A stretch of 64,000 bases of DNA from the NCBI RefSeq assembly GCF_019039255.1, contig NZ_CP077062.1, positions 2,542,001 through 2,606,000 on the forward strand, in the 5' to 3' direction. Shown piece by piece: positions 3,553 through 60,597 of the stretch. This DNA is from Nocardioides panacis (GTDB lineage: Bacteria; Actinomycetota; Actinomycetes; Propionibacteriales; Nocardioidaceae). The notes below the pieces were generated by a model. It worked only from the letters and a program-made list of their open reading frames with translations. It was not told the origin of the DNA and ran no database searches. The translations under genes were made by a program, and so were the position numbers. Positions within the stretch are counted from its first letter, which is position 1; every line of letters begins with the position of its first letter.

Positions 3553-4122
3553 TCAGAGGCCGGGGGCGCCCCAGACCGGCATCCACCGGGACAGGTCCTT
3601 CTCGACCGGGAGGTCGTCGGAGACCAGGTCGCGGATCTGGATCTCCAGCAGGTTGTCGCGCTGCTGGGGGCCGGTCGGCGCGAACGGGTAGAACGTGCCC
3701 TGCTTGTAGAGGTAGACCAGGCCCAGCCGGCGCCCGGCGGGGTCGGTGAACCCGACCAGCGAGCAGAGCAGGCTCGGGCCGAACCCCTGCGCCTCGAGCG
3801 AGGTGTTCACGGTGTGCAGGTCGGTGACGAGCGCCGACAGGTCGTCCGGGCTCTGCCGGGCCAGCAGCCAGGTGAAGCCGAAGGAGTCGGTGCTGCGCTC
3901 GACGTCCGGGTCGTCGTCGTTGTCGAGCAGCTCGACGACGTCGTTCTGCGCCTGCGCGAACGCCGCGCCCTCGGCGGCCCGGTAGCAGACCGAGCCGACG
4001 CCGGTCGGCGTGAAGCCGGCCGCCGTCTGCAGCGTCACCGCGGCCGCGGGCAACGAGAACAGCGCGTCCAGGTTGGCCTGCACCGGCTTGCTCCGGCCGC
4101 TCAGCGTGCTCCAGATGCCCAT
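3553..4122 (-). CDS. pspAB: PspA-associated protein PspAB
   Basis: Actinobacterial protein of about 190 residues encoded with PspA/HtpX; its biochemical role is not established. The product (189 aa) begins MGIWSTLSGRSKPVQANLDA and contains the conserved stretches CYRAAEGAAFAQAQNDVVEL and LGLVYLYKQGTFYPFAPTG. No signal peptide or membrane segment. It is the last gene of the four-gene minus-strand unit pspA-pspAA-htpX-pspAB, starting 8 bp after the htpX stop, which implies translational linkage and a role in membrane-stress responses. Confidence 0.88.
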   Translation of the reverse strand: MGIWSTLSGRSKPVQANLDALFSLPAAAVTLQTAAGFTPTGVGSVCYRAAEGAAFAQAQNDVVELLDNDDDPDVERSTDSFGFTWLLARQSPDDLSALVTDLHTVNTSLEAQGFGPSLLCSLVGFTDPAGRRLGLVYLYKQGTFYPFAPTGPQQRDNLLEIQIRDLVSDDLPVEKDLSRWMPVWGAPGL

Positions 4123-4130
4123 CGTGCGCC

Positions 4131-5106
4131 TCAGAGGCCGGCGCCGGGGGCCGGGAAGCCACCGTCCATCGGCTTGCCGAGCTCGGCGGACACCTTCGCG
4201 AGCTGCTCGAGCCGCTGCTCGAGCGACGGGTGCGTGGAGGTGAGGGTCTTGAAGCCCATGCCGCTGATCGCCGGGGTGATGAAGAAGGCGTTCATCGACT
4301 GGACCTCACGCAGGTCCTTGCTCGGGATCGAGGCGACCTCACCGCTGATCTTGGTCAGCGCGCTGGCCAGGGCCGAGGGCTTCTGGGTGAGGTAGGCGCC
4401 CGACCGGTCGGCGCACAGCTCGCGGTAGCGCGAGAGCAGCCGGGTCAGGAAGAAGCTCACGGCGTAGACCACCAGGCTGATCACCAGCGCGATCAGCCAG
4501 AACGGCGGGCCGTTGTTGTTGTTGTTGTTGCCGCCCCGGCGGTCGCCCCCGCCGCCGAAGAGCATGCCGTACTGCGCCCCGCGGGTCAGCATGCCGGCGG
4601 CGATGCCGGCCGACGCGGCCAGCGTCATCACCAGCACGTCGCGGTGCGCGACGTGGGACAGCTCGTGGGCGAGCACGCCCTCCATCTCCTCGGCGGTCAG
4701 CTTGTCGAGGATGCCGGTGGTCACGCAGACCGACGAGTGCTGCGGCGAGCGCCCGGTGGCGAAGGCGTTGGGCATGTCGGTGTAGGCGATCGCCACCCGC
4801 GGCTTGGGCATGTCGGCCAGCGCGCAGAGCCGGTCGATCACCCCGTGCAGCTCGGGGGGCCTCCTCGGGCGTGACGATCCGGGCCCGCATCGCCTTCAGC
4901 GCGATCGAGTCGGAGTTGTACCACTGGAACCAGGCGACCCCGAGGCCGGCGAGACCGATGATCACGGCGAGACCGGCGCCGCCGTACGAGCCGCCGGCGT
5001 ACATCAGCCCGACCACGAGCGCCACGAACAGCGCACCGAGCAGGAACATCACCAGGGTCATCCGCGCGGTGAGGCCGCGGTCGTTGATGAAGCGGGTGCT
5101 GGCCAT
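4131..5106 (-). pseudogene. htpX: Zinc metalloprotease HtpX, reading frame broken by one extra base
   Basis: Membrane-bound M48 zinc protease for quality control of membrane proteins. The N-terminal part (start at 5106) gives MASTRFINDRGLTARMTLVM and two hydrophobic segments in one frame. The rest, with the active site LAHELSHVAHRD, a further hydrophobic pair and a run of six Asn codons near 4510-4527, is in another frame. The frames join at the six-G run 4854-4859: with five G the join reads TPEEAPELHGVIDRLCALAD, exactly the family sequence. The span is 3n+1 bases. Either a true frameshift or, more likely, an assembly error in an intact gene. It sits between pspAA (1-base overlap, TGATG) and pspAB. 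Confidence 0.9.
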
Positions 5107-5384
5107 CAGCCCGGGATCAGCCCGTCGTCGTTGAGCAGCTCCCGCACCTCCTCCAGCGTGGCGTCGGACGGCGGCAGGATCAGGTCGGAGTCCTCGAGCG
5201 ACTCGTCGGGCAGCGGCTCACCGCCCGTGCGGACCGCGTCCAGCAGCGCCGAGAGGGTGTTCGAGAACGAGCTCTGGTCCTCCGCCTCGACGGCCGCCTC
5301 GACGGCCGCGTCCAAGGTGTTCAGCGTCGGCAGCTGCTCGTCCGTGACGGTCCACTGACCCTCTCCGAGGATCCGGACGATCAT
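5106..5384 (-). CDS. pspAA: PspA-associated protein PspAA
   Basis: Small 92-residue cytoplasmic partner protein found with actinobacterial PspA. It begins MIVRILGEGQWTVTDEQLPT, a typical PspAA opening (a short beta-rich domain), followed by an acidic helix and the C-terminal LEEVRELLNDDGLIPG. Start overlaps the pspA stop by 4 bases (ATGA) and its stop overlaps the htpX start by one, so translation is tightly coupled. Probably modulates PspA assembly; this is inferred from family context rather than from the sequence. Confidence 0.87.
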   Translation of the reverse strand: MIVRILGEGQWTVTDEQLPTLNTLDAAVEAAVEAEDQSSFSNTLSALLDAVRTGGEPLPDESLEDSDLILPPSDATLEEVRELLNDDGLIPG

Positions 5385-6172
5385 GACTGGCCCTCTTCCT
5401 TGCGGGGCTCGCTCACCGGGGTGGCCTCGACCTGCGCCGGCGGCGTGGAGTCGGACTGCTCCAGGGCCTGCGGGGCGCTGCCGGCCTTCAGCGCGGCCAG
5501 CTCGCTCTCCACGTCGGACTGCGAGGACATCGCCTCGAGCTCGCGGGAGATGTCGTCGCCGCGGTTGATCGAGCTGGCGTCGTCGAGCGCGCCGGAGGCG
5601 ATCAGCTCGTCGATGGCACCGGCCCGGGCCTGCATCTGCGCGGTCTTGTCCTCCGCGCGCTGCACGGCCATTCCGACGTCGCCCATCTCCTCGGAGATGC
5701 CGGAGAACGCCTCGTTGATGCGGGTCTGCGCCTCGGCGGCGGTGTACTGCGCCTTGATGGTCTCCTTCTGCGTGCGGAAGGACTCGACCTTGGCCTGCAG
5801 CCGTTGGGAGGCGAGCGTGAGCTTCTCCTCCTCGCCCTGCAGCTGCGCCTGCTGGGCCTGCAGGTCGCTCATCTGCGAGGTGAGCGCCGACTTGCGGGTG
5901 AGCGCCTCGCGGGCGAGGTCCTCGCGGCCCATGGACAGCGCCTTCTGGGCCTGCTCGGTGAGCTTGTCGGACTGCTGCTTGAGCTGCGCGCCCTGGAGCT
6001 CGACGCGCTTGCGGCTGGTCGCGACGTCGGCCACGCCGCGACGCACCTTCGTCAGCAGCTCGAGCTGGCGCTTGTAGCTGTAGTCCAGCGTCTCGCGCGG
6101 GTCCTCGGCGCGGTCGAGCGCCTTGTCGGCCTTGGCGCGGAAGATCAGGCTGATGCGCTTCATGAGAGTCAT
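5381..6172 (-). CDS. pspA: PspA/IM30 family envelope-stress protein
   Basis: Peripheral membrane protein of the ESCRT-III-like PspA/Vipp1 family; oligomerises on stressed inner membrane. The 263-residue product is almost wholly alpha-helical and coiled-coil: MKRISLIFRAKADKALDRAE at the N-terminus (amphipathic helix) and heptad-rich segments such as LQAQQAQLQGEEEKLTLASQ. The first ATG (6170-6172) was chosen because AGGGGGGC lies about 8 nt upstream; a second ATG three codons on lacks such a site. First gene of the operon. An ACCCTA (TAGGGT on the minus strand) near 6230 is a candidate -10. Confidence 0.94.
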   Translation of the reverse strand: MTLMKRISLIFRAKADKALDRAEDPRETLDYSYKRQLELLTKVRRGVADVATSRKRVELQGAQLKQQSDKLTEQAQKALSMGREDLAREALTRKSALTSQMSDLQAQQAQLQGEEEKLTLASQRLQAKVESFRTQKETIKAQYTAAEAQTRINEAFSGISEEMGDVGMAVQRAEDKTAQMQARAGAIDELIASGALDDASSINRGDDISRELEAMSSQSDVESELAALKAGSAPQALEQSDSTPPAQVEATPVSEPRKEEGQS

Positions 6173-6362
6173 GGAGGGCAGCCCCCCTTTTCTTTTTCTC
6201 GGTGATGCGGCGAGGTGACGTCGCCACCACCCTACGGGGCAACGGACGGGCGGAGTAGGAGGTTCCCGGTGCTCCCGGCCGGTCGTTCGCGGCTACTGTG
6301 GGACCCACCAGCCAGCTCGGGTCCCGCACCCGGCCCGACGCCAGACCGAGGAAGCCAGAGCG

Positions 6363-6932
6363 TTGTTCCGTCGCAGCAAGACCGCCGAAGCGCCCGCCGC
6401 CACCGAGACCGTCAAGGTCGCCGGAAAGGGCCGGCCCACTCCCAGCCGCAAGGACGCCCAGGCCGCCGCCCGGGCCCGCGCCAAGGGCCCCCAGGACAAG
6501 AAGGCCGCGGCCCGCGCCCAGCGCGAGCGCCGCACCGAGAGCAGCGCCACGATCCGCGAGGGCATGAAGCGCGGCGAGGAGCGCTACCTGCCGGCCCGGG
6601 ACAAGGGCCCGGTCCGCCGGTTCGTCCGCGACTGGATCGACTCCCGGCTGTGCATGGCCGAGATGCTGCTGCCGCTGCTGATCCTGATCATGGTCGGCCA
6701 GGCGTTCTCCCAGAGCCTGGCCAACGGCCTGTGGAGCGCGACGATCCTGCTGGTCGCCCTGGACACCTCGCTGGTGGTCTTCCGGCTCCGCCGCGAGCTG
6801 CGCCGCCGGTTCCCCGACGTGAGCACCAAGGGCGCGGTCGGCTACGGCGTGCTGCGCTCCATCCAGCTCCGCTGGATCCGGCTCCCCAAGCCCCAGGTCA
6901 AGCTCGGCGCCAAGCTCCCCGACCGCTACTGA
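6363..6932 (+). CDS. DUF3043 domain-containing membrane protein
   Basis: Actinobacterial protein of unknown function, 189 residues. The N-terminal 75 residues are highly basic and Ala/Arg/Lys-rich (KDAQAAARARAKGPQDKKAA), followed by RRFVRDWIDSRL, two hydrophobic helices (roughly residues 98-117 and 122-140) and a basic C-terminal tail. This is the DUF3043 layout. TTG start at 6363 preceded by GAGGAAGCC. It diverges from pspA. Topology suggests a two-helix inner-membrane protein with both ends in the cytoplasm. Confidence 0.85.
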   Translation: MFRRSKTAEAPAATETVKVAGKGRPTPSRKDAQAAARARAKGPQDKKAAARAQRERRTESSATIREGMKRGEERYLPARDKGPVRRFVRDWIDSRLCMAEMLLPLLILIMVGQAFSQSLANGLWSATILLVALDTSLVVFRLRRELRRRFPDVSTKGAVGYGVLRSIQLRWIRLPKPQVKLGAKLPDRY

Positions 6933-7103
6933 CCCAAGGCCGACCCGGGCCCCAGTTCACCCCGACCCTGGCCATGGCACAGGTTGAGCCGGGCCGTAGT
7001 TACACCATCGTCCGAGTCCGGCCACCTCGAGTCGCAGGTGACGCCGTACCCCACCCGATAACTCGTCGGGCTCTGCACGAGACCCGGGATGCCCGGCACA
7101 AGA

Positions 7104-7301
7104 GCCGCCTCGGCCCTCACCCACACCCGGGTCGGCCTTCACCACCACCCGGGTCGGCCTTCACCACCACCCGGGTCGGCCTTCACCACCACCCGGGTCG
7201 GCCTTCACCACCACCCGGGTCGGCCCTCGGCACCCCCCGGGTCGGCCCTCACCAACACCCGGGTCGGCCTTCACCAGGACCCGGGTCGGTGGTGGGGGCG
7301 G
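7104..7301. repeat. Tandem array of nine 22-bp CCCGGGTCG-core repeats (array 1)
   Basis: CCCGGG hexamers begin at 7126, 7148, 7170, 7192, 7214, 7236, 7258 and 7280, exactly 22 bp apart; a degenerate copy fills 7104-7125. The typical unit is CCCGGGTCGGCCTTCACC followed by four bases, around the palindromic core ACCCGGGT. The 397-bp gap 6933-7329 holds nothing else apart from the promoter at its right end; isolated CCCGGG sites also occur at 6944 and 7083. Open frames through the array translate to HHPGRPSPP-type repeats and are not credible genes. Related arrays lie near 46.6 and 60.7 kb. Confidence 0.95.
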
Positions 7302-7316
7302 GTTGGGGAGCGGGCA

Positions 7317-7322
7317 TAGGGT
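7317..7322 (+). promoter_or_regulatory. -10 hexamer TAGGGT, leaderless start for aldo/keto reductase
   Basis: TAGGGT lies 7 nt before the ATG at 7330. No ribosome-binding site can fit, so the transcript probably starts at or next to the ATG. Inferred from spacing only. Confidence 0.55.
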
Positions 7323-7329
7323 CGAAGGC

Positions 7330-8340
7330 ATGGAAATCCGCAATCTTGGTTCGAGTGGCCTGAAGATCTCCGCAATCGCCTACGGCAACTGGCTGACCCA
7401 CGGGTCCCAGGTCGAGGAGGACGCCGCGCTCGCGTGCGTCCGGCAGGCGATCGACGAGGGCATCACCACCTTCGACACCGCCGACGTGTACGCCAACACC
7501 AAGGCCGAGACCGTGCTCGGCAAGGCCCTGAAGGACGAGCGCCGCGAGGGCCTGGAGATCTTCACCAAGGTCTACTGGCCGACCGGCCCGGGTGCGCACA
7601 ACGACCACGGGTTGTCCCGCAAGCACATCCTCGAGTCGATCAACGGCTCCCTGAAGCGGCTCGGCACCGACTACGTCGACGTCTACCAGGCGCACCGCTA
7701 CGACTACGAGACCCCGCTCGAGGAGACGATGGAGGCCTTCGCCGACGTCGTGCACTCCGGCAAGGCGCACTACATCGGCGTCTCGGAGTGGCGGGCCGAG
7801 GAGATCCGCGCGGCCCACAAGCTCGCCCGCGAGCTGCGCATCTCGCTGGTCTCGAACCAGCCGCAGTACAACATGCTGTGGCGGGTCATCGAGCCCGAGG
7901 TGGTGCCGACCTGCGAGGAGCTCGGGATCGGGCAGATCGTCTGGTCGCCGATCGCGCAGGGCGCGCTGACCGGCAAGTACAAGCCGGGCGAGGACTACCC
8001 GGCCGGCTCGCGCGCCACCGACGACAAGGGCGGCGCGGACATGATCTCGCGCTGGCTCAACGACGACGTCCTCGGCCGGGTGCAGAAGCTCAAGCCGGTC
8101 GCCGACGAGGCCGGCCTCTCGCTGGCCCAGCTCGCCGTCGCCTGGACGCTGCAGAACAGCAACGTCTCGGCCGCGATCATCGGCGCCTCCCGGCCCGAGC
8201 AGGTCACCGAGAACGTCAAGGCGGCCGGCGTGAAGCTCGACGCCGAGGCCCTCAAGCGGATCGACGAGGTGCTGGACGGCGTCGTGGAGCGCGACCCGGC
8301 CAAGACCAAGTCCCCCGCGAAGCGCGACTTCGGCCGCTGA
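7330..8340 (+). CDS. Aldo/keto reductase (Kv-beta-like family)
   Basis: NADPH-dependent (beta/alpha)8 oxidoreductase, 336 residues. The catalytic tetrad is visible: FDTADVYANTKAETVLGKAL (Asp and Tyr), IFTKVYW (Lys) and VDVYQAHRYD (His). The cofactor region includes IIGASRPEQVTENVKA near the C-terminus. SNQPQYNML and VWSPIAQGALTGKY are typical of the voltage-gated potassium channel beta-subunit-like aldo/keto reductases. The start was placed at ATG 7330, giving MEIRNLGSSGLKISAIAYGN, rather than at an in-frame GTG 27 bp upstream. Substrate unknown. Converges with the small gene at 8357. Confidence 0.93.
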   Translation: MEIRNLGSSGLKISAIAYGNWLTHGSQVEEDAALACVRQAIDEGITTFDTADVYANTKAETVLGKALKDERREGLEIFTKVYWPTGPGAHNDHGLSRKHILESINGSLKRLGTDYVDVYQAHRYDYETPLEETMEAFADVVHSGKAHYIGVSEWRAEEIRAAHKLARELRISLVSNQPQYNMLWRVIEPEVVPTCEELGIGQIVWSPIAQGALTGKYKPGEDYPAGSRATDDKGGADMISRWLNDDVLGRVQKLKPVADEAGLSLAQLAVAWTLQNSNVSAAIIGASRPEQVTENVKAAGVKLDAEALKRIDEVLDGVVERDPAKTKSPAKRDFGR

Positions 8341-8356
8341 CCCGCGGCGCGGGCGC

Positions 8357-8636
8357 TCAGCCCTGCTCGTGCAGGCTCATCGGCCCGTAGACCTCGCGGT
8401 CGCCCTCGAAGAGCGTGACCTGGTCGACGCCGTCGTCGACCAGGTCGCGCCAGACCTCGCCGATCCAGGACTCCGCGTCGCTCTGCGAGGGGAAGCCGGT
8501 CACCCCGGACGCCGTACCCCCCGGCGGCCTTGCTCACCTCGGCCCCGGCGGTGTCCTCGAAGCGCCAGCGCCAGGTCGACCTGGGCGAGGTGTCGCTGCC
8601 GGTGAAGGACGAGGAGGGCTCCAGGGAGTGCGTCAT
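8357..8636 (-). pseudogene. Small conserved hypothetical protein, frame broken by one extra base
   Basis: About 92 residues if repaired. The N-terminal half (start 8636) reads MTHSLEPSSSFTGSDTSPRS then WRWRFEDTAGAEV. The C-terminal half in another frame reads SQSDAESWIGEVWRDLVDDG and ends YGPMSLHEQG. The join is in the six-C run 8517-8522; five C give KAAGGTASGVTGFPSQSDAE. The span is 3n+1 bases. No function recognised; it resembles small actinobacterial cytosolic proteins that carry a DAESWIGE-type motif. Treated as one gene with an indel, probably an assembly error. Confidence 0.72.
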
Positions 8637-8689
8637 GTGACGAGCCTAACCGGCGCGCAGGGCGGGGCTCTTTGACGCCGCCGCGACCC

Positions 8690-8840
8690 GCGTGGGAGCG
8701 TGAGCGCATCTGCCCCGCTTCGGGAAAGCCGGTTCGACTCCGGCGCTGACCCGCAACCGTGAGCCGTGCCGCACGTCGGCGCGACGAGCCGGAGAACCGG
8801 ACGGGTCAGCGGCTCCACTCATCCGTCGAGGTCTACGGGA
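8690..8840 (+). promoter_or_regulatory. Cobalamin (B12) riboswitch
   Basis: Leader of the corrinoid operon. It contains the conserved core CGGGAAAGCCGGTTCGACTC, then CCGGCGCTGACCCGCAACCG (8731-8765 region), which corresponds to the B12-box and the junction common to AdoCbl riboswitches (Rfam family RF00174). A CGACGAGCCGGAGAACCGG segment follows near 8787. It precedes an operon whose products are corrinoid transport and cobamide assembly proteins, as expected. The exact ends are estimates. Confidence 0.85.
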
Positions 8841-8844
8841 CGGA

Positions 8845-8883
8845 GCCGGACCTGCGGGCCCGGTGGCCCGCGTGTGGTCCGGC
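8845..8883 (+). terminator. Expression-platform hairpin of the B12 riboswitch
   Basis: Two nested perfect arms, GCCGGACC/GGTCCGGC (8845-8852 with 8876-8883) and GCGGGCC/GGCCCGC (8854-8860 with 8865-8871), enclose the loop CGGT. It lies between aptamer and the first ATG (8919). It could be a terminator or part of a sequestering switch; there is no T-run. Confidence 0.55.
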
Positions 8884-8918
8884 GAAAGTCTGTGCACCGC
8901 CGCCACGAAAGGCCCCTC

Positions 8919-9653
8919 ATGGCCACTCCCCTCCGCCGGACCCTGGGCGCGCTCGGCGCCCTGGTCCTCGCCCTGCTCGTCGTCGCCGGCACCGCTCGTA
9001 CGGCGGACGCGGCCGACGGCTACAAGTACTGGAACTACTTCCACGTCGAGGGCGGGAAGTACGCCTTCGCCCAGACCGGCCCCGCCGACTTCACGCCCAA
9101 GGACGGCACCGTCGAGGCCTACCGCTACGGCCTGTCCACCGCCGCCGACGGCCTGCCGCCGCGCACCGACGCCACGACCTACACCGTCGAGGACATCTGC
9201 GCCGGCACCGAGGCCGGGTCCGGCGAGAAGCTCGTCGGGGTGCTGCTCGACTACGGCACGGCCGCGGACGCCGACGGCGGCCAGACCCCGCCCGCGCCGC
9301 GGGCCGCGTGCGCCGCGGTGCCGACCGCCGCGAACGGCCAGCAGGTCCTCGACGCCGTCGCCGACCTGCGGCTCGACAAGGGCCTCACCTGCGGCATCGA
9401 CGGCTACCCGGCCTCGGGCTGCTCGGTGACCGTGAAGAACCCGCCGTCCGCGGCCGCCGCCGCGACCGTCGACTTCGCGCTGCCCGAGGCGGCGAGCGCC
9501 ACCGCGAGCCCGGACGCCGCGGGCACCGCGGACCAGGCCGCCTCCGAGACCGACGACGGCGGCGTCCCGTGGACGCTGATCGTGGTGGTCGTGGTCGTCG
9601 TCGCGATCGGCGCCGCGTCGTTCGTGCTGTCCCGGCGCGGCAAGAACCTCTGA
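8919..9653 (+). CDS. SCO2322-like secreted, membrane-anchored protein of the B12 operon
   Basis: 244 residues: signal peptide (MATPLRRTLGALGALVLALL then AGTARTADA), an extracytoplasmic domain beginning DGYKYWNYFHVEGGKYAFAQ, an Ala/Thr-rich linker, a C-terminal transmembrane helix (WTLIVVVVVVVAIGAASFVL) and a basic tail SRRGKNL. ATG at 8919 is chosen because ACGAAAGG precedes it by 6 nt and it yields the signal peptide. First gene after the riboswitch and 10 bp before the ECF T component. The layout matches the actinobacterial SCO2322 family. Function unknown; a surface corrinoid- or cobalt-capturing role is a reasonable guess from context. Confidence 0.82.
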   Translation: MATPLRRTLGALGALVLALLVVAGTARTADAADGYKYWNYFHVEGGKYAFAQTGPADFTPKDGTVEAYRYGLSTAADGLPPRTDATTYTVEDICAGTEAGSGEKLVGVLLDYGTAADADGGQTPPAPRAACAAVPTAANGQQVLDAVADLRLDKGLTCGIDGYPASGCSVTVKNPPSAAAAATVDFALPEAASATASPDAAGTADQAASETDDGGVPWTLIVVVVVVVAIGAASFVLSRRGKNL

Positions 9654-9663
9654 GCCCAGCACC

Positions 9664-10815
9664 GTGCGCGCCGTCGACCGCCTCAGCTACCCCCGGAGCC
9701 TGCATCCGGGGGCCTGGTGGCTGTGGGCGGTCGCGCTCGCGGCGGCGGCCAGCCGCACCCAGAACCCGGTGCCGCTGGCACTGATCCTGGTGGTCACCGG
9801 GTTCGTGGTCGCCGCCCGGCGCAGCAACGCCCCGTGGGCCCGGTCCTACGTCGCGTTCCTCAAGCTGTCGCTGGTGATCATCGTGGTCCGGATCCTGTTC
9901 CAGGCGCTGCTGTCCACCGGCGCCCAGGGCCCCACGGTGCTGTTCACGCTGCCGTCGCTGCCGATGCCCGCGGGCAGCGGGCTCAAGCTCGGCGGCGTGG
10001 TCAGCCTCGAGGCGATCCTGCGGGCGTTCTACGAGGGCCTGCAGCTGGCGACCATCTTGTGCTGCGTGGGCGCCGCCAACGCGCTGGGCAGCGCCCGGCG
10101 GCTGCTGCGCTACGTGCCGGGCGCGCTCTACGAGGTCGGGGTGGCCTGCGTGATCGCGCTGACCTTCGCTCCCCAGCTGGTCACCGACGCCGCCCGGGTC
10201 CGCGCCGCGCACCGGCTCCGCGGCCAGAACGGCACCGGGCTGCGCAGCCTGCGCCGGCTGGCGATGCCGGTCCTCGAGGGCGCCCTGGAGCGGTCGGTGG
10301 ACCTGGCCGCCGCGATGGACTCCCGCGGCTACGGGCGTACGACGGACGAGTCGGCCGCCTCGCGACGGCTCACCGGGCTGCTCGTGTTCGGCGGGCTGCT
10401 CGGCGTCTGCGTCGGCATCTACGGGCTGCTCGACGGCACCGCGTCGGCGTGGCTGGGGATGCCGATGCTGCTGGTCGGCCTGCTCGTCGCGGGCGCCGGG
10501 CTGCACGTGGGCGGGCGGCGCAGCGGGCGGACCCGCTACCGGCCCGACCCGTGGGCACTGCCCGAGTGGCTGGTCTCCGCGTGCGGCGTGGTGGCCGCGA
10601 CGGCCGTCTTCGTCGACGTGCACCTGCACCCCGCGGACTTCTACCTGGCCAGCGTCACGGACCTGCCGCCGGTGCCGATGCTGACCGTGGTCGGCATCCT
10701 GGTCGGCGCGCTGCCGGCGTTCCTGGCCCCGCCGCTGCCGCTGGCCGCGTCACCGCACCGCCCCGCCCCGTCGGCCACCGCCGGGCCCGCCGACCGGATG
10801 GAGGTGGCGGCGTGA
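9664..10815 (+). CDS. ECF transporter T component (CbiQ family)
   Basis: Energy-coupling transmembrane subunit that links two ATPases to a substrate-binding S component. The 383-residue protein has several hydrophobic helices, e.g. FLKLSLVIIVVRILFQALLS, and the coupling-helix motifs MDSRGYG (residues 219-225) and the upstream RAAHRLRGQNG, equivalent to the two Ala-Arg-Gly type signatures of CbiQ/EcfT. GTG start at 9664; the stop overlaps the next start (GTGA). Part of the riboswitch operon, so the cargo is probably cobalamin or a precursor. Confidence 0.9.
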   Translation: MRAVDRLSYPRSLHPGAWWLWAVALAAAASRTQNPVPLALILVVTGFVVAARRSNAPWARSYVAFLKLSLVIIVVRILFQALLSTGAQGPTVLFTLPSLPMPAGSGLKLGGVVSLEAILRAFYEGLQLATILCCVGAANALGSARRLLRYVPGALYEVGVACVIALTFAPQLVTDAARVRAAHRLRGQNGTGLRSLRRLAMPVLEGALERSVDLAAAMDSRGYGRTTDESAASRRLTGLLVFGGLLGVCVGIYGLLDGTASAWLGMPMLLVGLLVAGAGLHVGGRRSGRTRYRPDPWALPEWLVSACGVVAATAVFVDVHLHPADFYLASVTDLPPVPMLTVVGILVGALPAFLAPPLPLAASPHRPAPSATAGPADRMEVAA

Positions 10816-12455
10816 TCGAGCTGCACCAGGTCGGCGTCACGTTCGCCGACGCGGACGAGCCGGTGCTCTCCGGGGTGGACCTCAGCATCCCCGAGGGCGA
10901 GCTGGTCCTCGTGGTCGGCCGGACCGGGTCCGGCAAGACCACCCTGCTGCGCACCCTGAACGGGCTGGTCCCGCACTTCTCCGGCGGCACCCTGCACGGC
11001 CGGGTGGTCGTCGACGGCCGGGACACCCGGCAGCACCGGCCCCGCGACCTCGCCGACGTCGTCGGGTACGTCGGGCAGGACCCGCTCGCCGGCTTCGTCA
11101 CCGACACCGTCGAGGACGAGCTGGCCTACGGCATGGAGTCGCTGGGCCTGGCCCCGGACGTGATGCGCAAGCGGGTCGAGGAGACCCTCGACCTGCTCGG
11201 CCTGGCCGAGGTGCGCAACCGGCCGGTCGCCGACCTGTCCGGCGGCCAGCAGCAGCGGGTCGCGATCGGGTCCGTGCTCACCACCCACCCCCGGGTGCTG
11301 GTGCTCGACGAGCCCACCTCCGCCCTGGACCCGCTGGCCGCCGAGGAGGTGCTGGCGACCCTGCAGCGGCTGGTGCACGACCTGGGGCTGACCGTGGTGC
11401 TCGCCGAGCACCGGCTCGAGCGGGTCGTGCAGTACGCCGACCGGGTGGTGCTGGTGCCCGGCGGACGCGCGCCGGTCGTCTCCGGCACCCCCGAGCAGGT
11501 GCTCCGAGACGCCCCGGTCGCCCCGCCGGTCGTCGAGCTCGGCCGGATCGCCGGCTGGGACCCGCTGCCCCTGTCGGTGCGCGACGCCCGCCGGCTCGCC
11601 GGTCCGCTGCGCGAGCAGCTGGCCGCCGTCGAGGCGCCCGAGCGGACCGGGACGGGCGCCGCCAGCGCCGCCGGGGCGGCCGGGACCGTCGCCACCACCG
11701 AGGACCTGGTCGTGTCCTACGGCCGGGTGCCGGCGCTGCGCGGCGTCACCACCCGGCTCGGCCGCGGCGAGGTGGTCGCGCTGATGGGCCGCAACGGCGC
11801 CGGCAAGTCCACACTGCTCAAGACCCTGGTCGGCATGAAGCGGGCGAGCAGCGGCCGGGTCCTGGTCGACGGCCTCGACCCCGCCGGCCTGCGCCCCTCC
11901 GCGCTGCTGCGGCACGTCGGGATGGTGCCGCAGGTGCCGGCCGACCTGCTCTACGCCGCCTCCGTCGGCCGGGAGTGCGAGCAGGCCGACCAGGACGCCC
12001 GGGTGCCCGCCGGCACCACGCTGGCGCTGTTCCGGCGGCTCTCGCCCGGCGTCCCCGTCGAGCAGCACCCCCGGGACCTGTCCGAGGGCCAGCGGCTCAC
12101 CCTGGCCCTGGCGATCGTGCTCGCCGTACGCCCGCCGCTGCTGCTCCTCGACGAGCCCACCCGCGGCCTGGACTACACCGCGAAGCACCGGCTCGTGGAG
12201 ATCCTGCGGGACCTCGCCGACGAGGGCCACGCGGTGCTGCTGGCCACCCACGACGTCGAGCTGGTCGCCGAGGTGGCCACCCGGGTGCTGGTGATCGCGG
12301 ACGGCGAGCTGGTCGCGGACGGGCCGACCGCGGACGTCGTGGTGTCCTCCCCCGCGTTCGCCCCGCAGGTCGCCAAGGTGCTCGCCCCGCAGCGCTGGCT
12401 GACCCCGACCGAGGTGGCCGTCGCACTGGCCTCGACGGCGCCGGTGACCCCGTGA
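10812..12455 (+). CDS. ECF transporter ATPase with two fused ABC domains
   Basis: 547 residues holding two complete ABC ATPases. Domain 1 (about residues 1-235): Walker A GRTGSGKTTLL, signature LSGGQQQRVAIGS, Walker B VLVLDEPTSALD. Domain 2 (about 295-525): Walker A GRNGAGKSTLL, signature LSEGQRLTLALA (degenerate second Gly), Walker B LLLLDEPTRGLD. This replaces the separate EcfA1/EcfA2 pair. GTG start overlaps the CbiQ stop by 4 bases and the end overlaps the S-component start by 4 bases. Energises corrinoid uptake together with the neighbouring T and S proteins. Confidence 0.93.
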   Translation: MIELHQVGVTFADADEPVLSGVDLSIPEGELVLVVGRTGSGKTTLLRTLNGLVPHFSGGTLHGRVVVDGRDTRQHRPRDLADVVGYVGQDPLAGFVTDTVEDELAYGMESLGLAPDVMRKRVEETLDLLGLAEVRNRPVADLSGGQQQRVAIGSVLTTHPRVLVLDEPTSALDPLAAEEVLATLQRLVHDLGLTVVLAEHRLERVVQYADRVVLVPGGRAPVVSGTPEQVLRDAPVAPPVVELGRIAGWDPLPLSVRDARRLAGPLREQLAAVEAPERTGTGAASAAGAAGTVATTEDLVVSYGRVPALRGVTTRLGRGEVVALMGRNGAGKSTLLKTLVGMKRASSGRVLVDGLDPAGLRPSALLRHVGMVPQVPADLLYAASVGRECEQADQDARVPAGTTLALFRRLSPGVPVEQHPRDLSEGQRLTLALAIVLAVRPPLLLLDEPTRGLDYTAKHRLVEILRDLADEGHAVLLATHDVELVAEVATRVLVIADGELVADGPTADVVVSSPAFAPQVAKVLAPQRWLTPTEVAVALASTAPVTP

Positions 12456-13264
12456 GCGGCCTGCGACGGCACCCCGTCGCCACCCTCGTCCCGGTGCGGC
12501 TGCGCTCCGGCCTGGCGCTGGCCGCCGTGTTCGCGGTGGGCGTGGTGGCGTTCGGCTGGCCGTTCCTGACCCAGCCGGGGTCGGCCCTGGACACCTCGCA
12601 CTCCGGGGACGCGCCGCTGGTGTTCGTGCTGATGCTGCCGCTGCTCGCCGCGGTCGTGCTCGCCGAGCTCACCGCCGGCGGCATGGACGCCAAGGCGGTG
12701 GCGATGCTCGGGATGCTGTCCGCGGTCGGCGGCGCGCTGCGGGCCCTGGGCCCGGGCACCGCCGGCCTGGAGCCCAGCTTCGCGGTGATCATCCTGGGCG
12801 GGCGGGTGTTCGGCAAGGGCTTCGGCTTCGTGCTCGGCGCCATCACGCTGTTCACCGGTGCGCTGCTCACCGGCGGCGTCGGGCCGTGGCTGCCGTTCCA
12901 GATGGTCGCCGCCGGCTGGGTCGGCTTCTTCGCCGGCTGCCTGCCCCCGGGCCGCGGCCGCGTCGAGATCGGCTGGCTGGCGGCGTACGCCGCGGTGGTC
13001 GGCCTGGCCTTCGGGATGGTGATGAACCTGTGGTTCTGGCCGTTCGCGTCCTACGGTCCCGAGACGTCGTTCGTCGCCGGCGACCCGCTGGCCGCGAACC
13101 TGCACCGCTACCTGGTGTTCTACGTGACCACCTCGCTGCCCTGGGACCTCGGCCGGGCGGTGCTGTCCGCGCTGGTGCTGCTGCTGGCCGGGTCGGCGCT
13201 GCTGCGCGCCCTGCGCCGGGCCTCCCGCCGGGCCGCCTTCGACGCCCCGGTGGCCTTCGAGTGA
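12452..13264 (+). CDS. ECF transporter S component, probably corrinoid-specific
   Basis: 270-residue membrane protein with about six hydrophobic segments; it starts from GTG overlapping the ATPase stop. Visible features are the S-component-like KAVAMLGMLSAVGGALRALG, EPSFAVIILGGRVFGKGFGF, TGALLTGGVGPWLPFQMVAA and GMVMNLWFWPFASYG. Specificity is inferred: it is encoded under a B12 riboswitch and followed directly by CobU-type and CobS genes, the arrangement described for CbrT-type systems in Actinobacteria. A cobalt S component (CbiM) is less likely because no CbiM/CbiN motifs are present. Confidence 0.82.
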   Translation: MSGLRRHPVATLVPVRLRSGLALAAVFAVGVVAFGWPFLTQPGSALDTSHSGDAPLVFVLMLPLLAAVVLAELTAGGMDAKAVAMLGMLSAVGGALRALGPGTAGLEPSFAVIILGGRVFGKGFGFVLGAITLFTGALLTGGVGPWLPFQMVAAGWVGFFAGCLPPGRGRVEIGWLAAYAAVVGLAFGMVMNLWFWPFASYGPETSFVAGDPLAANLHRYLVFYVTTSLPWDLGRAVLSALVLLLAGSALLRALRRASRRAAFDAPVAFE

Positions 13265-14598
13265 ACCTCACCGTGCTCGGCACCGGCGCGGCCGACGGCT
13301 GGCCGAACCCGCACTGCCGCTGCGCCTCCTGTACGGCGGCCCGCTCGGCCGGCTCGCTGCGCGGGCAGACGTCGGCGCTGCTGGACGGCACGCTGCTGCT
13401 CGACTGCGGGCCGGAGACGCCGCAGGCCGCGCAGCGCGCCGGGCTCGACCTGACCGGGCTACGGCACGTGCTCCTCACCCACCTGCACCCCGACCACTGC
13501 TCCCCGGCGTTCCTGCTGTTCCGGGGCTGGGTGTCCGACGCGCCGCTCGACGTGCTCGGGCCGCCCGAGGTGGTCGAGCAGGCGCGGATGTGGGTCGCCC
13601 CCGACTCGCCGGTGCGGTTCGTGGCGGTCGCGGCCGGCGACCGGCACCGGCTCGGCGACCACGACGTGCGGGTGCTGCCGGCCGCGCACGGCGCCGACGG
13701 GTCCTGCGTGCTCTACGACGTGCGGGGCCCCGGCGGCCGGCTGCTCTACGCCACCGACACCGGCCCGCTCCCCCGCGCCACCGTCGAGGCGGTGGCCGGC
13801 GCCGCCTTCGACGCGGTGCTGCTGGAGGAGACCTTCGGGGACCACCTCACGCACGGCACCGACCACCTCGACCTGGGCAGCTTCCCCGAGCAGCTCCGCC
13901 GGCTGCGGGCGGTCGGCGCCGTCACCGCGGACACCGACGTGGTCGCCGTACACCTCTCGCACCGCAACCCGGCCGCTCCCGAGCTCGCCCGGCGGCTGGC
14001 GGCCTGGGGCGCCCGGGTGGTCGACGACGGCACCACGCTGGGCGCCCGCCCGCAGCCCGCGCCGGTGGGCCGGACCCTGGTGCTCGGCGGCGCCCGGTCC
14101 GGCAAGTCCGGCACCGCGGAGCGGCTGCTCGCCGCCGAGCCGGCGGTGACCTACGTGGCCACCGCCTACCCCGCCGACCACGACGACGAGTGGGCCGAGC
14201 GGGTCCGGCTGCACCGGGCCGGTCGGCCCGCGCACTGGACGACCCGGGAGACCCTCGACCTGGTCGGTCTGCTGGCGGCCGAGGGCGAGCCGCTGCTCGT
14301 CGACTGCCTGACGCTGTGGCTGACCCGGGTGATGGACCGGCACGACGCCTGGGACGACGCGACCTGGGCGGCAGGCGCCGAGACGGCCGTCACCGCGGAC
14401 GTCGACGCGCTCGTCGAGGCCTGGCGCACCACCGGCCGCCGGGTCGTCGCGGTCAGCAACGAGGTCGGCCAGGGCGTGGTGCCCGACACGGCGTCCGGGC
14501 GACGGTTCCGCGACCAGATGGGCCGGCTCAACGCCCGGGTCGCGGCGGTCACCGAGGACGTGCTGTGGTGCACGGCGGGGCGGGTCGGCCGGCTGTGA
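13261..14598 (+). CDS. PhnP-like metallo-beta-lactamase domain fused to CobU-type adenosylcobinamide kinase/guanylyltransferase
   Basis: 445 residues, GTG start overlapping the S-component stop. Residues 1-260 form an MBL-fold hydrolase resembling PhnP: GTGAADGWPN, a CRCASC cysteine cluster like the structural zinc site of PhnP, the active-site motif THLHPDH, and LLYATDTGPLP. Residues 275-445 are the bifunctional cobinamide kinase/guanylyltransferase: P-loop LGGARSGKSGTAERLL, VTYVATAYP, LLVDCLTLWLTRV, AVSNEVGQGVVPDTASGRRF and FRDQMGRLN. The C-terminal half activates adenosylcobinamide (phosphate) to the GDP form. The role of the MBL half is unknown; it could supply a phosphatase or phosphodiesterase step of nucleotide-loop assembly. 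Confidence 0.9.
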   Translation: MNLTVLGTGAADGWPNPHCRCASCTAARSAGSLRGQTSALLDGTLLLDCGPETPQAAQRAGLDLTGLRHVLLTHLHPDHCSPAFLLFRGWVSDAPLDVLGPPEVVEQARMWVAPDSPVRFVAVAAGDRHRLGDHDVRVLPAAHGADGSCVLYDVRGPGGRLLYATDTGPLPRATVEAVAGAAFDAVLLEETFGDHLTHGTDHLDLGSFPEQLRRLRAVGAVTADTDVVAVHLSHRNPAAPELARRLAAWGARVVDDGTTLGARPQPAPVGRTLVLGGARSGKSGTAERLLAAEPAVTYVATAYPADHDDEWAERVRLHRAGRPAHWTTRETLDLVGLLAAEGEPLLVDCLTLWLTRVMDRHDAWDDATWAAGAETAVTADVDALVEAWRTTGRRVVAVSNEVGQGVVPDTASGRRFRDQMGRLNARVAAVTEDVLWCTAGRVGRL

Positions 14599-15335
14599 AC
14601 CCGCTCCGGCTCTGCCTGGGCACGCTGACCGTGCTGCCGGTGCGGCCCCCGGCGCGCGTCGACCGGGACGTGGCGGGCCGCGCGATGCTGCTCGCCCCGC
14701 TGGCCGGCACGCTGCTCGCGGTGCTCGCCGGCGGGGCGCTGTGGCTGCTGGACCGGGTCGTCTCGCCGCTGCTGGCCGCGACCCTCGCGGTCGGGCTGCT
14801 CGCGCTGCTGACCCGCGGCATGCACCTCGACGGGCTCGCCGACACAGCCGACGGCCTCGGCTCGCGGCGGCCGGCCGCCGGCGCCCTGGAGGTGATGCGG
14901 CGCGGGGACGTCGGCCCGTTCGGGGTGGTGACGCTGGTCGTCTCGCTGCTGGCCCAGGTCGCCGCCCTGGCCGCGGCGCCGGCCGCTCCGGTGGCGCTGG
15001 CCGTGGCCCTGCTGGTGTCCCGCGCGGCGCTGCCCCTGCTGTGCCGGCGCGGCGTCCCGCCGGCCCGGCCCGAGGGCCTCGGCGCCCTGGTCGCGGGCAC
15101 GGTCCCCCCGGTCGCGGCGGCCGCCACCGCCCTGGCCACGGTGCTCCTCGCCGGGGCGGTCGGCTGGTCGACGTACGGTCTCGGCGGGGTGCTGGCCGGG
15201 GTCCTCGCGCTCGCCGCCGGCGCTGCGTACGCCGCGCACTGCGTGCGCCGGTTCGGCGGGATCACCGGTGACGTGCTCGGCGCCTGCGTCGAGGTCACCG
15301 GCACCGCGGCGCTGGTGTTCCTGGGGTTCGTGTGA
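14595..15335 (+). CDS. cobS: Adenosylcobinamide-GDP ribazoletransferase CobS
   Basis: Integral membrane enzyme that joins adenosylcobinamide-GDP and alpha-ribazole (phosphate) in the last step of cobalamin assembly. 246 residues; GTG start overlaps the CobU stop by 4 bases. The family signature RGMHLDGLADTADGLGSRRP and MRRGDVGPFGVV are present, with several hydrophobic helices and a conserved end RRFGGITGDVLGACVEVTG. Last gene of the riboswitch operon. It carries an in-frame six-C run at 15113-15118 that does not disturb its reading frame. Confidence 0.94.
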   Translation: MNPLRLCLGTLTVLPVRPPARVDRDVAGRAMLLAPLAGTLLAVLAGGALWLLDRVVSPLLAATLAVGLLALLTRGMHLDGLADTADGLGSRRPAAGALEVMRRGDVGPFGVVTLVVSLLAQVAALAAAPAAPVALAVALLVSRAALPLLCRRGVPPARPEGLGALVAGTVPPVAAAATALATVLLAGAVGWSTYGLGGVLAGVLALAAGAAYAAHCVRRFGGITGDVLGACVEVTGTAALVFLGFV

Positions 15336-15384
15336 CGGATCGGGTCTGCGCCGCCTAGGCTGCTCGGCGACCTCGGGGGTTCAC

Positions 15385-17211
15385 ATGTTCCGTTCCAGCA
15401 CACGCACCGTCACCGCCGCTGCCGTCGCGGGGGCGCTCCTGCTGCTCGCCGCACCCGCGGAGGCCGCCGACCCGGCGCCGTCCGGGGTGCAGGTGATCGC
15501 GCACCGCGGGGCCGTCGACCGGGCGCCCGAGCACACGCTGGCGGCCTTCGACCAGGCCGTCGCCGACCACGCCGACCGGGTCGGCCTCGACGTGCGGCTG
15601 ACCGCCGACGGGGTGCCGGTGGTGGTCCACGACGCCGACCTGGCGCGCACCACCGACGTCGAGCAGAAGCTGCCCGGCGCCGGCGGCTACCCCGTGGAGG
15701 CCTACACCCTGGCGCAGGTCAAGACCCTCGACGCCGGCAGCTGGTACCCCGGCGGCGGCTACACCGACGCCCGGGTGCTCACCCTCGACGAGGTGCTGAC
15801 CGAGCTGGCCGGCAGCCGGATCGGGCTCACCCTGGAGGTCAAGAACCCGGCGGTGTACGGCGGCGTCGGCGGCATCGGCGCGACCGTCAAGCAGGTGCTC
15901 GACGCGCACCCCGAGTGGTCGGTGGGCCGGGCCGACGGCTCCCCGCGGCTCGTCGTGGAGAGCTTCGACTGGGCGTTCCTGGACGGCCTGCACGCGACGT
16001 ACCCCGACCTGCCGCTGGTGCTGCTCGGCGACACCGTCGGCGCCGTCGACCTCGACGCCCGGCCCTGGGTCCGGGAGATCGACGCCCGCCACGACACGCT
16101 CACCTCCGCCACGGTGCAGAAGGCGCGCGGACTGGGGATCTTCGTAGGCACCTGGACCGCGAACGGCACCGCGGAGCTGCAGCACGCGGTCGACCTCGGC
16201 GCCGCCGGGGTGACCACCGACCAGCCCGACCTGCTCCGCACGCTGCTCGTCGGGCAGGCCCGCACCTGGACCGGCGCCTCGTGGCCGGAGCAGCCGCCCA
16301 CCGTGCGCGCCGACGCGCTCGCCCCCTCCACCGCCCAGGTGGGCGGCCGGGTGCAGGTCAGCGCGCGCGCCGTGACCGCCGCCGACACCCGGGTCCCCTG
16401 GCAGACCGTCACCTTCCAGTCCCGGCTGGGCGGGGTCTGGCGGACCGTCGGGTCCAACGCCACCGACGCGCACGGCTGGGCGCTGCTGTCCCTGCCGGTC
16501 AACGAGACGATGCGGGTCCGGGTCGTCACCGGCGGCGTGGTGTCCGCGGAGCGGGCCGTCACCGCGGTCACCGCCCCTGTGGTCCCGCCGCCCGGTGCGC
16601 CGGGTCCGTCCCTGCACCCGGCCGCCCAGGCCCGTCCCACCACCGCCGGCGCGGACCCCCGCACCAGTGCGGTCAGCAGCGCGGTGTGGCGCGCGATGGC
16701 CGGCCGGTCGTGGCGCAAGGGCTGCCCGGTCGGACGGTCCGGGCTGCGGATGCTGCAGGTCAGCTACTGGGGCTTCGACGGGCACCGGCACCGCGGCACG
16801 CTGGTCGTGGCCCGCGGCTCGGCGGCCCAGCTCGGCCGGGTGTTCCGCCGGCTCTACGCGCAGCGGCTGCCGGTGCGCTCGCTGCGCCGCCTTGAGACGA
16901 TGGGCGGCTGGAGCACCGCGGTGGGCCGGGCCCGCCGCGCGGACGCCGGGTTCGGGTTCGCCTGCCAGCGGGTGCCCGGTGACCGGACCCGGACCGGGTC
17001 GCACGCGCGCGGCACGATGGTCACGCTGAACCCGTGGGAGAACCCCGCGACGGTCTCGCACGGGGTGCCGGACCGCTGGTGGCTCAGCCGCACCAGGAAC
17101 CTGCCCTACGTGCACACCGCGAGCAACCCGGTGGTCCGTGCGTTCGCGGCCGAGGGCTTCGCCTGGAGCGGGAAGTACGGCAAGTACGCCGACTTCCGCG
17201 ACGTGCGCTAG
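15385..17211 (+). CDS. Secreted glycerophosphodiester phosphodiesterase fused to a C-terminal M15-like domain
   Basis: 608 residues. Signal peptide to about residue 27 (ends APAEAADP). GDPD domain about 35-290 with [39 protein letters not shown] and LTLEVKNP, the metal-binding and catalytic His/Glu/Asp set; it would cleave glycerophosphodiesters outside the cell. A beta-rich Ig-like linker follows (about 300-400), then a Pro/Ala-rich hinge, then a domain resembling peptidase M15 (about 455-608; [29 protein letters not shown]). In that domain the zinc-ligand Asp of the SxHxxGxAxD motif is Thr and the final His-containing motif reads DFRDVR, so it is probably not a peptidase. Its stop overlaps the convergent gcvT stop by 4 bases. 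Confidence 0.88.
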
Positions 17212-60187: not shown

Positions 60188-60205
60188 GCCGGAGGCAAGG
60201 GCGAG

Positions 60206-60597
60206 GGATGAGCCGGCCTGTAGGCCGGGTTCTGTCTCCGCGCGCCTCGCGGCGCCACGGTCGGCGACCATCCATCTAGGGCTGCCGTTGCCGACAGCCT
60301 CGTGCGGTCTACCCGTGAGCTCGGGCGGGCCGCCCTCGAACGCTCACGCGGGAAGCGAGCTTCCCTTCTTGACCTTGCTCCAGGTGGGGTTTACCGAGCC
60401 GCTCCGGTCGCCCGGAGCGCTGGTGGTCTCTTACACCACCGTTTCACCCTTACCACCGTGCAGGCACGGTGGCGGTCTGTTCTCTGTGGCACTGTCCCGC
60501 GGGTCACCCCGGGTGGGAGTTACCCACCACCTTGCCCTGTGGAGCCCGGACCTTCCTCGACGAGTCTCCTCGCCGCGGCCGCCCGGCCGGCTCATCC
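60206..60597 (-). ncRNA. rnpB: RNase P RNA (class A)
   Basis: Catalytic RNA that matures tRNA 5' ends. On the minus strand it begins GGATGAGCCGGCC (60585-60597) and ends with the complementary strand of 60206-60218, forming a perfect 13-bp P1 stem. The universally conserved block GAGGAAGGTCCGGGCTCC is at 60541-60558 and the 3' ACAGAACCCGGCCTACAGG block is at 60213-60235. Size about 392 nt is normal for Actinobacteria. It lies between the thermonuclease gene and a 22-bp array. Confidence 0.95.

Follow-up and report, generated by a model that had tools for sequence, protein, structure and literature searches.

A candidate corrinoid-capture protein with a circularly permuted, transcobalamin-related beta domain at the head of an ECF importer operon in Nocardioides panacis

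Results

The lead gene of a B12 operon encodes an anchored outer domain

We analyzed a stretch of 64,000 nucleotides from Nocardioides panacis (NZ_CP077062.1, positions 2,542,001 to 2,606,000), referred to here as the window. An open reading frame with its ATG at 8919 and its stop at 9653 was, as originally predicted, the lead gene of a B12 operon behind a riboswitch: a cobalamin riboswitch core directly precedes this gene, which belongs to the SCO2322 family, and an ECF importer, CobU and CobS are encoded downstream (Table 1). The score of the core, obtained in a search of 501 bases, lies below the Rfam gathering score of 31.5, and no RF00174 core upstream of 8919 is among the matches at that threshold.

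Table 1. Features of the B12 operon and of its lead gene, in window coordinates
Feature	Position	Strand	Basis
Cobalamin riboswitch core (RF00174)	8726..8795	+	27.7 bits, E 3.1e-5
SCO2322-family protein, 244 aa	8919..9653	+	NF040672 143.7 bits, cut-off 85
Signal peptide, residues ~1-32	8919..9014	+	hydropathy; cleavage site inferred
Beta-grasp second half (S3-S4-S5, residues 34-73), placed first	9018..9137	+	model secondary structure; crossed profile matches to order B
Beta-grasp first half (S1-S2-helix-hairpin, residues 103-172), placed second	9225..9434	+	model; crossed matches to order B
C-terminal membrane helix, residues ~219-237, then SRRGKNL	9573..9629	+	hydropathy 2.97
EcfT/CbiQ transmembrane component	9664..10815	+	PF02361 E 9.7e-11
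Fused double EcfA ATPase	10812..12455	+	PF00005, two stretches, E 2e-56
ECF S component	12452..13264	+	PF12822 E 1.2e-8
Metallo-beta-lactamase fold fused to CobU	13261..14598	+	PF02283 E 3.1e-50, PF12706 E 1.4e-17
CobS, adenosylcobinamide-GDP ribazoletransferase	14595..15335	+	PF02654 E 5e-45

The product has the architecture that had been proposed for it, a signal peptide, an outer domain and a C-terminal helix. Hydropathy, averaged over 19 residues, reached 2.2 near residues 8-26 and 2.97 from residue 219, and stayed at or below 0.95 across residues 34-205, consistent with a signal peptide and a single C-terminal membrane helix. The match to NF040672 covers profile positions 2-144 of 144 and places the folded part at about residues 31-173. 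An external domain of about 170 residues had been predicted; a folded outer domain is indeed present, and the remainder, up to the membrane helix, is a linker rich in Ala, Ser and Thr. An AlphaFold2 model of residues 30-178, built with 69 sequences, had a pLDDT of 92.1 and a pTM of 0.86. No Pfam family exceeded its gathering score in a scan of the protein.

Other features of the window were also recorded. The metallo-beta-lactamase domain ahead of CobU gave PhnP and RNase Z matches, and the pairing of the two domains in one frame recurs in a number of relatives. Behind the B12 genes, 15268-17211 encodes a GDPD phosphodiesterase domain with a weak C-terminal M15 peptidase match below the cut-off. 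A class A RNase P RNA (300.5 bits) lies on the minus strand at 60205-60594.

The genome of the window encodes an aerobic corrin pathway (CobG, CobN, CbiE/T, precorrin-8X methylmutase, CobB, CobQ and CbiB), so corrinoid uptake is not obviously essential. Together with further riboswitches in the same region of the genome, this pathway suggests that the importer probably serves as an additional salvage route, perhaps for cobinamide, whose conversion CobU and CobS could complete.

The SCO2322 family occupies the position before EcfT

NF040672 was found in 125 of the 296 sampled genomes of the class, in 103 of them over the cut-off. From 560 confirmed stretches, the best 80 were taken as a set of named loci, from Nocardioidaceae, Kribbella, Intrasporangiaceae, Streptomyces and others. 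Among these best 80 of 560, EcfT lies directly behind the family gene in 77, the three misses being at or near a contig end; the ATPase was present in 76, the S component in 74, CobU in 41 and CobS in 40. Sixty loci (L032-L091), some on short contigs, had EcfT in 50 cases. When family genes were sorted by the two domain orders described below, EcfT adjoined 139 of the 148 genes in order A and 19 of the 27 in order B, leaving nine of the former (three at contig ends) and eight of the latter without an adjoining EcfT. In a riboswitch survey with RF00174 in 68 genomes, 72 gene places were typed in 67 of them, and at least 51 of the 72 had a riboswitch upstream on the same strand. Of these riboswitches, at least 16 are separated from the domain by no more than about 520 bases, the arrangement also seen in the window; for at least 35 the distance is 1.1-2.1 kb.

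The family has four invariant or nearly invariant cysteines, which, in a secreted domain, more likely form disulfides. These bear on the nature of the substrate. An importer of cobalt ions with a cobalt-binding outer domain would fit an EcfT of the CbiQ family, which is named for cobalt transport, and a genome that makes its own corrinoids. However, CobU and CobS, which follow in the window and in 41 and 40 of the best 80 of 560 loci, respectively, act on cobinamide; the transcobalamin beta domain, to which we relate the outer domain below, binds a corrinoid; and cysteines engaged in disulfides would argue against a metal site. We therefore see only a very slim chance that cobalt ions are the substrate.

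Two loci, L070 and L071, have SCO2322 proteins beside CobU and CobS with no EcfT near, and these proteins are devoid of the last two family cysteines.

The domain occurs in two circularly permuted orders

The first sign of two orders was that several relatives matched the family model as two order-reversed pieces within a single frame. With a profile built for this analysis, we distinguished order A, that of the window (n = 148, its own copy counted), from order B (n = 27). In order B, the half with VVVDFG...IDGxPxxGC leads and the half with YWSYW...EGW comes second; six of the 27 proteins were matched over a single stretch and were placed in B by eye from their sequence. Comparison of the undoubled A profile with the B profile gave two crossed matches, of 98.3% (47 columns) and 98.0% (55 columns). 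When the A profile was written twice, these were replaced by a single match of 99.6% over 104 columns. NF040672 matched all 19 order-B members that were scanned (best E 2.5e-16), and in the one viewed in detail it did so in two stretches, its 42.9 bits falling short of the cut-off of 85; a Pfam scan of 19 order-B members gave nothing better than E 0.06. Local duplications are suggested by four loci (L089, L090, L041 and L051) that each carry a pair of order-B genes, some of them lacking the membrane helix.

The element order of the AlphaFold2 model fits S3-S4-S5 followed by S1-S2-helix-hairpin. Strands 121-124 and 127-131, which follow helix 111-118, form a beta-hairpin insert like that of transcobalamin-type SLBB domains. 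According to the parts of Burroughs et al. (PMC1949818) that deal with this type, its order is S1-S2-H-insert-S3-S4-S5. The chain order of the window protein, S3-S4-S5-S1-S2-H-hairpin, thus differs from that of transcobalamin-type SLBB domains.

Profiles relate the domain to DUF4430 and the transcobalamin beta domain

DUF4430 (PF14478) proteins, which are in order B, are present in 51 of the 296 sampled genomes of the phylum. DUF4430 was not listed for the window protein at E<=1, and none was found in the genome of the window at E<=0.001. The doubled A profile matched DUF4430 at 71.7% over 99 columns, and a profile combining rotated A with B matched it at 89.1% over 90 columns, with a score of 39.5; 100 column shuffles scored at most 20.95, and the reversed profile 9.6. 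DUF4430 in turn matched the printed beta fragment of human transcobalamin-2 at 86.8%, with none of 100 shuffles as high. Directly compared with human transcobalamin, the A plus B profile matched in one half only (7.1%; score 19.7 vs at most 15.3 in shuffles), doubled A reached 3.5%, and order B alone was equaled by three of 100 shuffles. Of the two glycines conserved in transcobalamin-type SLBB domains, one after S2 and one before S3, that of the IDG motif is mostly kept, and the glycine after S2 is missing in many rows of one group of sequences (f20).

Searches with structures and against PDB sequences were less informative. Foldseek of the model found no PDB match at E<=0.001, and VIA-align gave best Z values of only 2.4 and 2.1; a permutant can escape a sequential aligner, but these results lend the kinship no support. 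Neither the A nor the B profile matched 3u7z, a solved DUF4430-like chain, and the first half of the domain alone had no hit among PDB sequences. The DUF4430 profile itself found 3u7z at E 0.03 and transcobalamin-2 only at E 1.0. In PDB sequence searches the A profile and the B profile hit only proteins at chance level, for example GFP-type proteins and folylpolyglutamate synthase, and these were discarded. The BtuG, BtuF and CobT folds that had been suggested for comparison were not borne out: they had no Pfam or NCBIfam support, and Foldseek and VIA-align of the predicted domain gave nothing useful for them. A BtuF-type binding protein and CbiN were rejected, since neither Peripla_BP_2 nor the Pfam domain of CbiN was listed for the window protein at E<=1.

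These comparisons suggest, at profile level, that the window domain is kin to DUF4430 and the transcobalamin beta domain. The two half orders could be real and the likeness still be a convergence of small beta-sheets with some other ligand, since the DUF4430 link lies at 71.7-89.1% and not near 100%, the fold search had no match, 3u7z went unmatched and the direct link to transcobalamin is weak. Against such convergence, none of 100 shuffles scored as high, the match covers 90-99 columns and requires the rotated order, and canonical DUF4430 proteins occur in the same type of operon, together with a toroid. We accordingly regard convergence as very improbable and retain homology.

Many relatives encode a toroid partner that is permuted in step

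We examined the gene preceding the family gene in ten relatives: nine in which the riboswitch lies more than 1.1 kb away, and Streptomyces L190, which is outside the riboswitch search set. All ten products gave weak to moderate Pfam matches to squalene-cyclase/prenyltransferase toroids. The NCBIfam entry SCO2321_fam matched all six that were scanned, one of them over its cut-off. Several toroid proteins have LPxTG-like motifs at their end. The model of a Streptomyces SCO2321 member is an alpha/alpha toroid (pLDDT 92.6, pTM 0.92). Squalene-hopene cyclase led its VIA-align results (Z 24.0, rmsd 2.8, 256 aligned), with transcobalamin not among the best 50 entries; in Foldseek, human transcobalamin (2bb5) ranked 40th, at E 1.5e-4. 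The toroid fold is thus well supported; the structural rankings do not single out the alpha domain of transcobalamin as a special relative.

The A-type toroid profile, when doubled, gave one alignment with the B-type of 302 columns (40% identity, E 1.3e-58); undoubled, it broke into 197 and 106 columns. Off-register matches between toroid repeats scored at most 164.5 vs 446.9 in register. As judged from these alignments, the toroid is circularly permuted too. The orders of beta and toroid agreed in all 85 pairs (A with A in 68, B with B in 17, mixed in none), which are related sequences and hence not independent events. For 80 A and 10 B genes no toroid was found nearby, some of these genes lying where the contig or the fetched sequence stops.

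Nineteen DUF4430 loci were fetched, not counting the mixed locus L217; a toroid was present in 11 and none was seen in eight. In loci where an S component was found, these toroids lie behind it; they are matched best by the B-type profile, the A-type matching only in fragments. The DUF4430 proteins and their toroids thus both side with order B, which is therefore the likely ancestral order, that of the window being likely derived. The mixed locus (L217 in genome G089, 3996-11134) encodes an order-B protein, EcfT, an S component, a B-type toroid and a second protein, recognized by Pfam as DUF4430; two outer SLBB-like proteins thus share one locus.

A single origin of the permuted order was tested with two phylogenetic trees; both were quick, with rows thinned (four long rows omitted for EcfT, near-copies thinned for the toroid). 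That all order-A operons form one clade was rejected by the EcfT tree (AU p 0.008; 52 vs 27 rows) and was not rejected by the toroid tree (AU p 0.34; 39 vs 28 rows). One reading, which we offer as a lead, is that the surface pair moves as a unit between transporter lineages. The order-A rows that have no toroid did not form one clade in the EcfT tree, with eight label changes; toroids were therefore lost, or gained, more than once.

The window belongs to a toroid-less branch

Neither the SCO2321 toroid nor a squalene-cyclase domain was found in the genome of the window at E<=0.001, the best match of the toroid profile being at E 0.07, and Pfam and NCBIfam place no toroid domain in the window protein chain itself. 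Within the first set of order-A proteins, 45 of 47 members with a toroid and six of 21 without one have the second Trp of the YWxxW motif; the window protein has Phe at this position. This Trp could mark a contact with the toroid or the ligand, and kinship alone could also explain its distribution. We tentatively propose, at somewhat less than even odds, that corrinoid importers of actinomycetes have a surface transcobalamin made of two proteins, its toroid and beta-grasp halves both permuted and moving together as a matched pair, even between transporter lineages, and that in the branch of the window, where the toroid has gone, the permuted beta domain supplies the importer by itself, freed of the tryptophan found in nearly all relatives with a toroid.

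A corrinoid capture and hand-off role is the best-supported proposal

The riboswitch, the position before EcfT, the profile-level homology with the beta domain and the toroid partner in many relatives make corrinoid capture and hand-off the best-supported proposal for its function. We propose, with a probability of roughly 0.7, that the window protein is an anchored surface domain, a circularly permuted homologue, at profile level, of the transcobalamin beta domain, that captures corrinoid for the co-encoded ECF importer. In our best reading, this capture and hand-off subunit would be the beta-only form of a split bacterial transcobalamin. By analogy, the beta protein, held by its anchor beside EcfT and the S component, would bind cobalamin or cobinamide on the outer side of the membrane; the toroid, where present as a second anchored protein, would probably close over the ligand as the alpha domain of transcobalamin does; and the captured corrinoid would be handed to the S component. 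In the toroid-less genome of the window, the beta domain would be used alone. Plentiful corrinoid would turn the operon off through the riboswitch. Parts of PMC5599065 report that the isolated human TC-beta domain binds cobalamin and cobinamide, and that human alpha and beta domains made separately assemble in a cobalamin-dependent manner.

A different role would be that of an accessory subunit that binds no ligand and positions or stabilizes EcfT or the S component from outside, the role ascribed to CbiN in cobalt importers. The membrane anchor fits this role, and so do the place of the gene immediately ahead of EcfT, seen in 77 of the best 80 of 560 loci, and the Lactobacillus importer ECF-CbrT, which, according to sections of PMC5997447, works without an outer binding protein, CbrT binding cobalamin and cobinamide with nanomolar affinity. 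However, the window protein has no CbiN match at E<=1, its domain is akin to one that binds B12, and many relatives add a toroid like the other half of the B12 carrier; we consider an accessory role unlikely. For the capture role, the independence of ECF-CbrT suggests that the window protein may be of importance only at low corrinoid supply.

Discussion

The original prediction of a corrinoid capture or hand-off factor fares well as to the role; its description of the factor as not yet described does not stand, since the SCO2322 family had been named and the scavenging of B12 by transcobalamin-like surface proteins of CbiO/CbiQ operons was proposed in parts of Burroughs et al. 2007 (PMC1796856). 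The same parts describe transcobalamin-type SLBB domains, bacterial fusions with toroids and operons with CbiO/CbiQ. The word stem 'permut' is absent from the main text of PMC1796856, and the one circular permutation found in passages of PMC1949818 is that of the E1 UFD domain. Among the open-licence papers listed for these subjects, none dealt, by title and abstract, with the function of SCO2322, with SCO2321 and cobalamin or with a permuted transcobalamin domain. As far as these searches show, three things are new: the circular permutation, the corresponding change in the partner, and the branch that has the beta domain alone.

If our reading is right, the SCO2322 family, matched in 125 of the 296 genomes sampled from the class, gains a testable role. 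The same reading illustrates a way for bacteria to equip an ECF importer, a kind of transporter believed to work without such help, with a capture protein, and it means that actinomycetes possess a counterpart of the animal B12 carrier divided between two proteins. Since either domain order, as well as a form with the beta domain alone, exists in nature, the contributions of the two halves can be compared with no need for engineered variants. A pair of partners that have both changed their chain order, in step in every pair found, is also unusual in protein evolution.

The window protein shares its domain and operon slot with the SCO2322 family (NF040672) without difference, and that entry gives no function. 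Its predicted role resembles the working of BtuF and BtuG, outer corrinoid-binding proteins that supply an importer; unlike BtuF, it has no Peripla_BP_2 match, and the fold of BtuG differs from its own. Similar to ECF-CbrT of Lactobacillus, the importer of the window is of the ECF type and is predicted to carry corrinoids; ECF-CbrT needs no outer binding protein (sections of PMC5997447), whereas the window operon co-encodes one. With DUF4430 (PF14478) and transcobalamin-type SLBB domains, the window family shares a predicted beta-grasp core with a hairpin insert after the helix, secretion, CbiQ-type neighbors and a toroid nearby. It differs from them in its circular permutation, its failure to give a direct Pfam hit and its four invariant or nearly invariant cysteines, and the toroid gene precedes the beta gene in many SCO2322 relatives, whereas it lies behind the S component in the DUF4430 loci examined. 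In transcobalamin and intrinsic factor both domains form one chain; here they are encoded by two genes, both halves are permuted relative to DUF4430 loci, and the genome of the window is toroid-less. The beta domain is common, at profile level, to these carriers and the window protein, and many of its relatives also have the alpha/alpha toroid, encoded just before the beta gene.
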